Origin: a virus
Length of the DNA stretch: 44,489 nucleotides
Virus record (IMG/VR): IMGVR_UViG_3300037237_000099
Location: 1 to 44,489 of that record
Reading direction: 5' to 3' (one strand)
Made by a program: the position numbers and the translations under genes. The notes under the pieces were generated by a model. It made no database searches and was not told where the DNA came from. It saw only the letters and a list, made by a program, of their open reading frames with translations. Numbering within the stretch: position 1 is the first letter of the stretch; each line of letters starts with the position of its first letter. Below are positions 2,664 through 24,764 of this stretch, one piece after another.

Positions 2664-3687
2664 CATCAACGAGGCGCAAAGCTACCCGCACCGGCTCCAG
2701 GCCGGCCTGGACGCGGGCCTGGATACGCTCAGCCAGGAGCAGATCGTCACCTTCACGAAGTACATCCGGGTGGTGCTGCCCCTGGACGGCTTCGTGTTCT
2801 GGGTCCGCGCGGGCCTGGTGAACGCCTCGGCGCTCCCGAACACCGCCTTGCTGGGCCAGTTCCGGCCCGACCAGCCGGCCGCTACGGGCGGGGCCGACAC
2901 CATCACAGTCAAGGGCTCCTTTCACTATAGCGTGCAGCGCCGGCAGCTCGACGATCAAACCCTCGACGTGAACTCCTGCGTGTTTACCTCGCAGTCTTCG
3001 CTTGAGGATTTCAACTACATAAACCCCCAGATCATGTATCTGGGCGAGTTTAAGAATATTCGCTTCTCCTTCTCGCAGCGTGGCAACTTCTACCAGCAGG
3101 CGAGCCTCTGGCATTATGTCGGCGACGCGGTCTACCCGGATATGGAGACGCAGATCGTCGATACCCTGGACGGGTTCGACCTGCAGAACCGGGTGGTCTC
3201 CAACAGCCTGCCGATATGGCTGGCCCTGGATCCGTCAAACCCGCCCTACCCGTTTCCGGGCTCGCAGCGCATTCCGATGTACCCCTCGATGCTGGTACCG
3301 GATGATATCTACCCGCCCTGGTGCTCCGTCGACGTCCAGTCGACCGAAGTGCTGCTCACCGCGCCCTATATCGACTCCGCCACCGGCAGCCATTACCAAC
3401 TCGCGCAGGACGTCGTGCGGCTCACCTTCTACGGGATCCGCAATTTCAGCATTCTGGACTTCGTCGACTACGTGAACATCATGACGCAGGTCCCGGATCC
3501 GCTCTTCGGAATCATGAACCTGCCGGCGGTGCAGGATGAGAAGAAGACCCAGGCCGAGCTCTCGGTGATCGCTCAAAAGAAGTCGATCACCTACGAGATC
3601 ACCTACAACCAAACCCGCATGCGCCAGGTCGCGCAGGCGCTCATCGAGAAAGTCTTAGTCGGCTATCTCATTCAACCAGGAGTGTAA
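2656..3687 (+). CDS. Conserved tail/neck structural protein (unknown fold)
   Basis: 343 residues, overlapping the previous gene by 8 bases. No catalytic motif seen. It is rich in aromatic residues and beta-type sequence (YIRVVLPLDGFVFWVRAGL, FHYSVQRRQLDDQTLDVNS, FKNIRFSFSQRGNFYQQ) and ends with a helical segment (TQAELSVIAQKKSITYEITYNQTRMRQVAQALIEK). Length and location before the sheath suggest a virion structural component, for example a tail terminator or neck protein. Inference from synteny only. Confidence 0.55.
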   Translation: MVSINEAQSYPHRLQAGLDAGLDTLSQEQIVTFTKYIRVVLPLDGFVFWVRAGLVNASALPNTALLGQFRPDQPAATGGADTITVKGSFHYSVQRRQLDDQTLDVNSCVFTSQSSLEDFNYINPQIMYLGEFKNIRFSFSQRGNFYQQASLWHYVGDAVYPDMETQIVDTLDGFDLQNRVVSNSLPIWLALDPSNPPYPFPGSQRIPMYPSMLVPDDIYPPWCSVDVQSTEVLLTAPYIDSATGSHYQLAQDVVRLTFYGIRNFSILDFVDYVNIMTQVPDPLFGIMNLPAVQDEKKTQAELSVIAQKKSITYEITYNQTRMRQVAQALIEKVLVGYLIQPGV

Positions 3688-3690
3688 TCC

Positions 3691-4017
3691 GTGTCCCAGA
3701 CGCCCTTTAATGCCCAGAACTCGATCCTCTCTTCCGCTGGCGGCCAGCACTCGGCGCTTGCTCTCCAGGCCGGCCCGAACTTGGTTAAAGCCTCCCCGGG
3801 CCGCATCTGCAAATTGAGCATCACCACCGCCGGCACCGCCGGCACGCTGGCCGTAAACGATTGCGCGACCACGGGTGCCGTGACTGCCGAAAATCTCATC
3901 TATAATGGGCTCGACACCTCTCCGGCAGGCACCGTCGTGGATCTTGAGTTCCCCTGCCTCTACGGCATCGTCGTGACGGTCCCGACCGGCGGCGTGGTCT
4001 CGGTCTCCTACCTCTAA
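3691..4017 (+). CDS. Small beta-rich virion protein
   Basis: 108 residues, starting at GTG 3691 after AGGAG (3678-3682). Beta-rich, with alternating Gly/Thr/Val stretches such as RICKLSITTAGTAGTLAVND and a closing GIVVTVPTGGVVSVSYL. It looks like a small jelly-roll or Ig-like accessory/decoration protein. The product of 18504-18848 has a comparable plan (short N-arm, beta domain ending in V-S-Y), possibly the same broad family. Confidence 0.6.
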   Translation: MSQTPFNAQNSILSSAGGQHSALALQAGPNLVKASPGRICKLSITTAGTAGTLAVNDCATTGAVTAENLIYNGLDTSPAGTVVDLEFPCLYGIVVTVPTGGVVSVSYL

Positions 4018-22844: not shown

Positions 22845-22892
22845 GGCGGCCTGCTGGCGGAGTGATTGATCCTCCTCCGCCAGCAGGCCGCC
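22845..22892. other. 18-bp perfect hairpin after the late operon
   Basis: GGCGGCCTGCTGGCGGAG (22845-22862) pairs perfectly with 22875-22892 around a 12-base loop. No T-tract follows. It lies 38 bases after the last late gene, in front of a classical terminator, and may block read-through in either direction or serve as an RNase III site. Confidence 0.8.
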
Positions 22893-22911: not shown

Positions 22912-22951
22912 ACCCTGCCCGGCGTAAGCTAGGCGGGGTCTTTTTGTTTTT
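22912..22951 (+). terminator. Intrinsic terminator of the late operon
   Basis: ACCCTGCC (22912-22919) pairs with GGCGGGGT (22932-22939), with one G-U pair, followed by CTTTTTGTTTTT. Marks the end of the + strand late transcription unit before the convergent gene at 22967-23164. Confidence 0.85.
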
Positions 22952-22966: not shown

Positions 22967-23164
22967 TCAGACTTGATTAGGGTCTGTCTCGTTGCCTGGA
23001 ACATTGGAGCACCCATTCTCCTGGATCTGTACCACCTTCCACCCAGCGCGTTCCAGGGACGCGACAATAAGTTCAGCGCGAGCATGTAGGACGGTTGGCA
23101 TCCCCACATCCCATGCATACAAGGCACCTGCAATTACAGTTTCCGGCTTTGTTTGTTCAGACAT
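22967..23164 (-). CDS. Small hypothetical protein divergent from the switch gene
   Basis: 65 residues from ATG 23164, set by AGGAGAAG at spacing 7. EQTKPETVIAGALYAWDVGM then a helix (LHARAELIVASLERAGWKVV). Transcribed away from the recombinase-like gene; its promoter has TTGACA at 23273-23268 inside the operator region. Function unknown, but its regulation suggests a role in the control switch. Confidence 0.6.
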   Translation of the reverse strand: MSEQTKPETVIAGALYAWDVGMPTVLHARAELIVASLERAGWKVVQIQENGCSNVPGNETDPNQV

Positions 23165-23243
23165 ATCGGCTTCTCCTGGGAAATCGGCAGTTGTTGAATG
23201 AACCAACCGAAAGCGCCGGGCGGCCCGTAAATCTATGTCTTGT

Positions 23244-23293
23244 AATCTATCACCTGTTGTGTCAGTCTGTCAACGTAATAACAGGTAATAGAT
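23244..23293. promoter_or_regulatory. Palindromic operator over a divergent promoter
   Basis: Half-sites ATCTATCACCTGTT (23245-23258) and AACAGGTAATAGAT (23280-23293) are inverted repeats with one mismatch, separated by 21 bases. The right half-site ends one base before the GTG start of the 23295 gene. On the - strand a perfect TTGACA (23273-23268) sits in the spacer and a TAGATT -10-like box (23249-23244) falls in the left half-site, so a bound dimer would block transcription of the 22967-23164 gene and could control its own. Confidence 0.7.
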
Positions 23294-23294
23294 A

Positions 23295-23906
23295 GTGCGA
23301 TTAGGATATATGAGAGAAGCTCCCGGTCTGCCGAGCCGTAAGATTCAGGAGGACGCGCTGCGCGCCGCCGGCATCGAGGACTTTGGCGACGAGGGGCCAG
23401 TTTGGCGCGACCTTCCTCTCAAGCGGCGGAAGACCGGCACTGGAGATGCGCAGCCTCAACTGTCCGAAGCGCTGCGGGCTATGCGTCCGGGCGACGAGCT
23501 CGTGGTGGCGAACCCCGCCGTACTGGGCGGCTCGCGCAACACAGCCTTCTTGTGGTTGCAGGTCATCGGCAAGCGTGAGGGCGCGGTATTCGATGCCAGC
23601 ACTGGCCAGCGTATCGCCTGGAATCCCGAGGCGCTTGCCCTGCTGGTTTTCTGCAACCGGGCCGAGACGATCACCCGCAGCTTCGCCTTGGCCAAAGCCC
23701 GCGTCCGCCGGGCTGAGCTGGGGAACAAGGGCGGCACGAAGACTAAGTTGGTCGGGAAGACCAAGGAGGATGCGTTCACGATATGGCTGAACCCAGAACT
23801 GACGGGGGACCAGGCGGCGGAGAAGATCGGCATTTCACCCAGCACGGCATACCGGAAACTCGGGCCGCGCGATCAACCTATTTTTGGAAGGAAGCCTAAG
23901 AAATGA
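23295..23906 (+). CDS. Degenerate serine-recombinase-like protein with HTH (putative regulator)
   Basis: 203 residues from GTG 23295. The N-terminus RLGYMREAP...QEDALRAAGI and DELVVANPAVLGGSRNTAFL follow the resolvase fold, but the catalytic Ser after GY-x-R is absent (REAP in place of RVST) and the usual LDRLxRS arginine is missing. The C-terminus has a recombinase-type HTH (GDQAAEKIGISPSTAYRKLG). A DNA-binding regulator derived from a recombinase is the best reading. It heads a five-gene ATGA-coupled operon and faces a palindromic operator. Confidence 0.6.
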   Translation: MRLGYMREAPGLPSRKIQEDALRAAGIEDFGDEGPVWRDLPLKRRKTGTGDAQPQLSEALRAMRPGDELVVANPAVLGGSRNTAFLWLQVIGKREGAVFDASTGQRIAWNPEALALLVFCNRAETITRSFALAKARVRRAELGNKGGTKTKLVGKTKEDAFTIWLNPELTGDQAAEKIGISPSTAYRKLGPRDQPIFGRKPKK

Positions 23907-24130
23907 GCCAGATCGTGCAAAATCTGCACCAACTGAATGAGCCGGAGCCTACCCCGCTGCAACGGTCCGCGTGCTATTTTGTGGCCGCTCTGGCGCAAGA
24001 TATCGACGCAAAGCGGGGCATCGTCACACAGAATGGTACCAAGGAGACCCAGGCTCGCGTCATCGCCTCGGTGCAGAAGAATTGCTTCGGGGATGACGCC
24101 GCCGGCAAAGACACAAAGGACATCACATGA
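23903..24130 (+). CDS. Small hypothetical protein, switch operon gene 2
   Basis: 75 residues, ATGA overlap with the previous gene. SQIVQNLHQLNEPEPTPLQR then a helix (SACYFVAALAQDIDAKRG) and a polar tail. No motif recognised. Confidence 0.55.
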   Translation: MSQIVQNLHQLNEPEPTPLQRSACYFVAALAQDIDAKRGIVTQNGTKETQARVIASVQKNCFGDDAAGKDTKDIT

Positions 24131-24258
24131 GCATTCCGCTATGGCTGTTTCTAGTTTCGTTGTTTTGCGCGTTCATCGCGGGTGCGTGCTCCCAGATTTA
24201 TACTGACAGTTTTTGGCTAGAGCGCGCCCGTAAAATTGAGAGGACGTCCGTGCCATGA
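24127..24258 (+). CDS. 43-residue membrane peptide, switch operon gene 3
   Basis: MSIPLWLFLVSLFCAFIAGA followed by CSQIYTDSFWLERARK and ending TSVP. One N-terminal transmembrane segment, or a lipoprotein-like signal ending at AGAC. The start overlaps the previous stop (ATGA) and the stop overlaps the next start in the same way, so it fits exactly into the operon although it is very short. Confidence 0.6.
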   Translation: MSIPLWLFLVSLFCAFIAGACSQIYTDSFWLERARKIERTSVP

Positions 24259-24506
24259 GCGCCTTACAGGAACGTGTCGCCCGCAAGATTTGGGAGTGCG
24301 ACCCCATGCGTGCCGACAGCTTTGAGGAAGAAAATGCTGGCACGAGAGCTATGTTCATGGACATGGCCGAAGCGGCGCTCAACGAGTCAAAGACAGAAGA
24401 TCGCGGCCGGATGGCGCCATGTCCATCTGCTTCCAAGGCTCTTTCGCCAGGTACGGAGTGCGGTGCAGACCTGGCACAAATTTCTGACAAAAACGACAAA
24501 CCATGA
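24255..24506 (+). CDS. Small hypothetical protein, switch operon gene 4
   Basis: 83 residues. A helical N-terminal half (ALQERVARKIWECDPMRADS, AGTRAMFMDMAEAALNESK) resembles short phage proteins of unknown role; the C-terminal half is polar and low in structure. ATGA overlaps on both sides. Confidence 0.55.
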   Translation: MSALQERVARKIWECDPMRADSFEEENAGTRAMFMDMAEAALNESKTEDRGRMAPCPSASKALSPGTECGADLAQISDKNDKP

Positions 24507-24733
24507 GCCAGATCGAGGCTCTAACTCAACGCATCAGGGCGCAGCCAATCCAGGACATGCTCTGGTGCAGCATCGCGCCGGCCAGCGGGCTTTGCAGCCT
24601 ATGCCGGGGTTCGGGCCATCTCATGTGCTATCAGGACGGAGAGCGTGAGTTTTGGGAATGCCCGGCCTGCGGCGGCATCGGCGCCCGAGCGCTGTTTGGC
24701 AAGCCGACTGTCAAAATGAAGGAAATCAAATGA
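24503..24733 (+). CDS. Small DnaJ-type zinc-finger protein, switch operon gene 5
   Basis: 76 residues. Two CxxC pairs, CSLCRGSG and CPACGGIG, separated by 24 residues form a DnaJ central-domain-like zinc finger. No J-domain. Could act as a chaperone-like or nucleic-acid-binding accessory protein. Last gene before a large hairpin. Confidence 0.6.
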   Translation: MSQIEALTQRIRAQPIQDMLWCSIAPASGLCSLCRGSGHLMCYQDGEREFWECPACGGIGARALFGKPTVKMKEIK

Positions 24734-24735
24734 GG

Positions 24736-24764
24736 ACGGGCCCCGGAGACTATCCGGGGCCCGT
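24736..24764. terminator. 12-bp perfect hairpin between convergent operons
   Basis: ACGGGCCCCGGA (24736-24747) pairs perfectly with 24753-24764 around a 5-base loop, directly between the end of the + operon (24733) and the end of the - operon (24771). No T-tract on either side. Position makes a bidirectional termination or insulating role likely. Confidence 0.65.

Follow-up and report, generated by a model that had tools for sequence, protein, structure and literature searches.

Can a serine recombinase that has lost its active site be kept by a phage as a regulator of transcription? This question is raised by a module of small genes (22967-24733) in a linear IMG/VR virus record of 44.5 kb, which was analysed at its full length and is referred to as the window. 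Matches to a tail sheath and a baseplate wedge point to a contractile-tailed phage. The structural and lysis genes form a rightward block up to 22806, and the genes for DNA polymerase, helicase and exonuclease lie in leftward orientation in the right half; the module occupies the junction of these blocks. It is flanked by two strong hairpins, and a terminator-like stem, separate from the first of them, follows 3' of it.

22845-22892, directly 3' of the lysis genes: perfect hairpin of 18 bp (fold -51 kcal/mol, z -7.7)
22912-22939, + strand: terminator-like stem, then a T run, in the interval that separates the lysis genes from the divergent gene (z only -1.6)
22967-23164, - strand: divergent gene, 65 aa, predicted target of repression (ORF with an AGGAGA ribosome site)
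23295-23906, + strand: putative catalytically dead serine resolvase, 203 aa, GTG start (profile, AF2/Foldseek, residue table and tree)
24736-24764, no strand assigned: perfect hairpin of 12 bp, separating the module from the leftward replication genes

Family searches with the product of the divergent gene 22967-23164 yielded no convincing match.

Family and fold of the regulator protein

The product of 23295-23906 consists of an N-terminal domain that was formerly catalytic, a long helix E and a C-terminal helix-turn-helix of the resolvase type. The GTG start is correct, as the homologues share the beginning M-[RKN]-x-G-Y. The Pfam match to Resolvase was weak (E 0.046), and PHROG 125 (DNA invertase) was matched with 6e-8. 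A PDB search with the single sequence gave no match and only the family profile succeeded: a profile of ten members aligned over nearly the whole length with Gin (5e-17, the best match) and gamma-delta resolvase (2e-12). The AlphaFold2 model (mean pLDDT 77, pTM 0.57) resembles the gamma-delta, Tn3 and Sin resolvases, and its best 32 Foldseek matches were all serine recombinases; the resolvase-like fold and C-terminal helix-turn-helix, which the initial annotation had read from the letters, were thus recovered by structure prediction. Profile, tree and predicted fold show that the protein belongs to the serine resolvase/invertase family by descent.

Relatives with 30-41% identity were detected in a Brucella genome, in a Rhodospirillales MAG, in the viral contigs L002, L007, L064, L068 and L008, and on plasmids from Xanthobacter, Bosea, Agrobacterium and Paracoccus, the last with two copies. 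The database label of these dead resolvases is misleading because they are annotated as 'recombinase family protein'. No relative was found by tblastn against named phages or in the initial single-sequence scan of genome contigs. In strict searches the clade was rare, with 1-3 matches per sample of 385-399 genomes, and the statistics given below are therefore based on about 12 members.

Two other loci carrying resolvase-type domains were encountered. In a relative at L069:3439-4174 the C-terminal half of a resolvase is seemingly joined to an unrelated N-terminal stretch, which might reflect a gene fusion or else an error in the frame. Furthermore, the Paracoccus plasmid NZ_CP098363.1, which also bears two dead resolvases, encodes a hypothetical protein of 418 aa (44423-45679, corresponding to L073:1424-2680) in which a helix-turn-helix like that of resolvases (Pfam HTH_7 and HTH_24) is repeated about six times in tandem; a type IV secretion gene (DotI/IcmL) is located nearby.

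Loss of the active site and selection

In comparison to gamma-delta resolvase, S10 is replaced by Ala, D67 by Ala, R68 by Val and R71 by Gly in the window protein, and R45 is gone. The absence of the catalytic serine and of key arginines, proposed at first sight of the sequence, therefore holds at the aligned positions, where only R8 is kept; R8 is lost in L064. R45, D67 and R71 are replaced in all full-length members aligned, whereas active outgroup resolvases, where read in the correct frame, retain them. Two alignments disagreed around helix E, and no claim is based on those columns. The replacements suggest that the resolvase is unable to cut DNA.

In the tree, ten members form one clade (support 100/99), which is distinct among the active resolvases and originates from alphaproteobacterial plasmids and phages. 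Most matches of the genome search at 1e-16 to 1e-26 were active resolvases and served as outgroup controls; four of these (L044, L046, L050, L056) entered the tree in a wrong frame, which left the dead clade unaffected. Most plasmid members retain S10; it is replaced by Ala in the window, L007 and L064 (the phage subclade) as well as in L006, and by Asp in L068. It was thus lost more than once in the clade. S10A is also the exchange used as standard to inactivate Tn3 resolvase (PMC9943657).

The missing active-site residues, with S10 lost repeatedly, could be taken as signs of a decaying remnant without function. Such decay is already contradicted by selection and operator data and is regarded as extremely unlikely: the frames are open in all members of the dead clade, the pN/pS values among phage members (0.22-0.40) indicate purifying selection, and the former active-site loop PAVLGGSR is conserved, as is the operator described below. 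At these pN/pS values, the gene 23295-23906 is not decaying as judged from its sequence.

Operator and divergent promoter

The predicted binding site is located between the divergent genes and, at the sequence level, overlaps a promoter.

23230-23243, + strand: incomplete copy, in direct orientation, of the left arm (79%), absent as a conserved element in L064
23244-23249, - strand: -10 TAGATT of the divergent promoter, TG-extended, 18-nt spacer from the -35
23245-23258, + strand: left operator arm ATCTATCACCTGTT, overlapping the divergent -10 (shuffle test; kept in L064)
23268-23273, - strand: divergent promoter, -35 element TTGACA, occupying positions 10-15 in the gap of 21 nt
23280-23293, + strand: right operator arm AACAGGTAATAGAT, stopping one base 5' of the GTG (shuffle test; L064)

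The palindrome adjoining the start of the regulator gene was confirmed at exactly these coordinates. Its arms of 14 nt are 93% complementary and separated by a gap of 21 nt, and none of 300 dinucleotide shuffles of the upstream region (133 bp) reached its score. A probable ribosome site (AGG) lies within the right arm. That the palindrome covers a good divergent TTGACA promoter was likewise found to be correct, with the minus-strand -35 inside the gap and the left arm covering the -10. No other sigma-70-like site was present within 2.6 kb, where 0.7 are expected by chance. Two points weigh against a repressor: the promoter match taken alone is near chance, and the operator, with its 49 bp, exceeds to our knowledge every res subsite known.

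A DNA-bound protein of this kind might also be a non-cutting architectural partner that aids or blocks an active resolvase encoded elsewhere, transcription not being its main role. S10A domains at the accessory sites II and III still support Tn3 recombination (PMC9943657), and contig L002 carries an intact serine resolvase (1761-2396) about 1.4 kb downstream of the dead one. However, no second resolvase was seen by eye among the window ORFs. Only two inverted arms and one partial direct copy were detected, which do not look like a canonical multi-site res, and the conserved DNA falls on a divergent promoter whose TTGACA keeps a constant offset. A role as partner is therefore considered improbable.

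The initial annotation had also proposed a search for the operator elsewhere in the genome. Within the window nothing was found beyond the 23240-23295 region, that is, a single occurrence upstream of 23295-23906; the operator did recur in a further contig, L064. The same pattern was sought in viral contigs, where it occurred in L064's own contig and at AT-rich sites in L071 and L072, which were judged to be chance matches and rejected.

The position of the gene between the late and the replication blocks, and a tyrosine-integrase-like gene just downstream of the relative in L068 (by eye), could suggest the main lysogeny or lysis repressor of the phage instead of a local switch. This is very unlikely, since the operator faces only the 65-aa gene toward the lysis end and has no other copy in the window, and on the plasmids there is no phage programme for the regulator to control.

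Operator layout among the relatives

A common layout was observed among several of the relatives, in which inverted arms enclose a gap of 21 nt with TTGACA on the opposite strand at gap positions 10-15; the arm sequences themselves are unrelated. Defined strictly (TGTCAA at offset 9, arms at least 8/13), it is present in 5/12 members (the window, L064, the first L003 copy, L004 and L009) vs 0/32 active resolvases, a comparison which is not fully independent because the layout was first spotted in three members and then checked in the others. L064, a strict fit, was fetched before the full definition and was not used in finding the layout. The search used for the shuffle test also detected the arms of L004 (15 bp) and L009 (16 bp), which enclose a gap of the same 21 nt within unrelated sequence. 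In the second L003 copy TGCCAG stands in place of the -35, the layout of L007 is weak (TGTCAA at the offset, arms only 7/13), and in L068 the arrangement overlaps the start codon (by eye). The absence of the 21-nt layout from L005, L006, L008 and L010 counts against a repressor function, as does the lack of a clear divergent neighbour in L010. L075, a further member, is nearly identical to L006 and likewise lacks the layout.

Relative to the start codon, window and L064 share 80% identity over positions -52 to -1 and 26%, which is about chance, over -130 to -52. The conserved block starts at the left arm, because identity falls just beyond the operator. The divergent genes show no relationship to each other (an orphan of 65 aa in the window, DUF4258 and DUF2283 in L064, DUF5983 in L004). 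The conserved unit is the regulator with its operator, while the neighbours differ. The layout of an autoregulated switch, which had been recognised in the window alone, is shared by relatives whose arm sequences and neighbours differ.

In plasmid members, a possible promoter of the regulator itself was made out by eye; its -35 would coincide with the beginning of the gap, and its -10 (GATAAT in the second L003 copy) would fall within the right arm. Such a promoter would put both promoters beneath the operator.

Neighbouring small genes

Downstream of the regulator, four small genes follow.

23903-24130, + strand: small gene 1, 75 aa, ATGA-coupled, exchangeable neighbour (ORF list)
24127-24258, + strand: small gene 2, 43 aa, ATGA-coupled, a single 19-residue hydrophobic stretch with a mean hydropathy of 2.3
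24255-24506, + strand: small gene 3, 83 aa, ATGA-coupled (ORF list)
24503-24733, + strand: small gene 4, 76 aa, ATGA-coupled, CxxC pairs, zinc-finger-like

The ATGA coupling noted previously was verified by overlaps at 23903, 24127, 24255 and 24503, and the proposed membrane peptide of 43 residues is indeed an ORF of this length with a single hydrophobic stretch. Small gene 4 showed a weak match to the Q-like PHROG 6060. The other loci of the clade contain no relatives of the downstream genes, and the idea of a conserved defence operon at this place was therefore dropped; all four look like exchangeable neighbours.

The junction GACACAAAGGACATCACATGAGC is identical in the window (24105-24132) and in L064 (5690-5714), with differing flanking genes, and GGCAGTCC-N5-ATGAG is repeated at several junctions of L064. 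This recurring gene junction may be a seam for the swapping of small genes.

In L064, a DUF4258/DUF2283 pair (3510-3943, - strand) is divergent to the dead resolvase and the conserved operator. We take this pair to be toxin-antitoxin-like, and it might indicate that the regulator is a component of an anti-phage or toxin-antitoxin defence module. PADLOC detected nothing convincing among the window genes, and the neighbours differ in every relative; the probability of such a module is minimal, and the earlier suggestion of a defence module in the window was not supported. Whether resolvase binding controls neighbouring toxin-antitoxin genes is an open question (PMC7157771), for which L064 represents a natural test.

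Proposed mechanism and comparison with known systems

The product of 23295-23906 is very probably an autoregulated repressor that has lost recombination and only binds DNA. Its C-terminal helix-turn-helix would bind both inverted arms, presumably as a dimer or larger assembly. Occupancy of the left arm would cover the divergent -10, with the -35 sitting between the arms, and occupancy of the right arm would reach the protein's own start codon. Binding would thereby shut off, rather than activate, the divergent small gene 22967-23164 until some trigger releases it, and would also limit the synthesis of the regulator itself, as TnpR does at res in Tn3, here without recombination. For the conversion of a bifunctional resolvase into a pure repressor, loss of catalysis alone would suffice.

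On balance, it also appears probable that these proteins constitute a lineage of serine-recombinase pseudoenzymes, not described so far, which is spread over phages and plasmids of alphaproteobacteria and serves transcription control only, and that the regulator and its 21-nt-spaced, un-res-like operator form a portable cassette with changing accessory genes. A published description of such a repressor was not found in the open-access literature. Repression by resolvases is familiar as a side activity. In this clade of plasmids and phages it is seemingly the sole remaining role, which would make it a clean case of an enzyme converted into a transcription factor.

ParA of RK2/RP4 is an active multimer resolvase, unlike the window protein. 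The predicted resemblance lies in the autoregulated divergent promoters of this plasmid resolvase in parCBA (PMC7314908). Vaccinia F16, a predicted inactive serine recombinase, is likewise a viral pseudoenzyme, but nucleolar targeting is listed for it and no operator or repressor role is given in PMC11980589. The DNA invertases Gin of phage Mu and Hin are close by the profile match to Gin and by PHROG 125, but are active and flip a segment, whereas the window protein has no active site. Similar in arrangement is TnpR of Tn3/gamma-delta, with the same fold and helix-turn-helix and a site between divergent promoters, where its binding autoregulates tnpR and tnpA (PMC7157771). TnpR, however, cuts and recombines at a res of three subsites, whereas the window protein, without S10, R45, D67, R68 and R71, faces an operator of two arms 21 nt apart.
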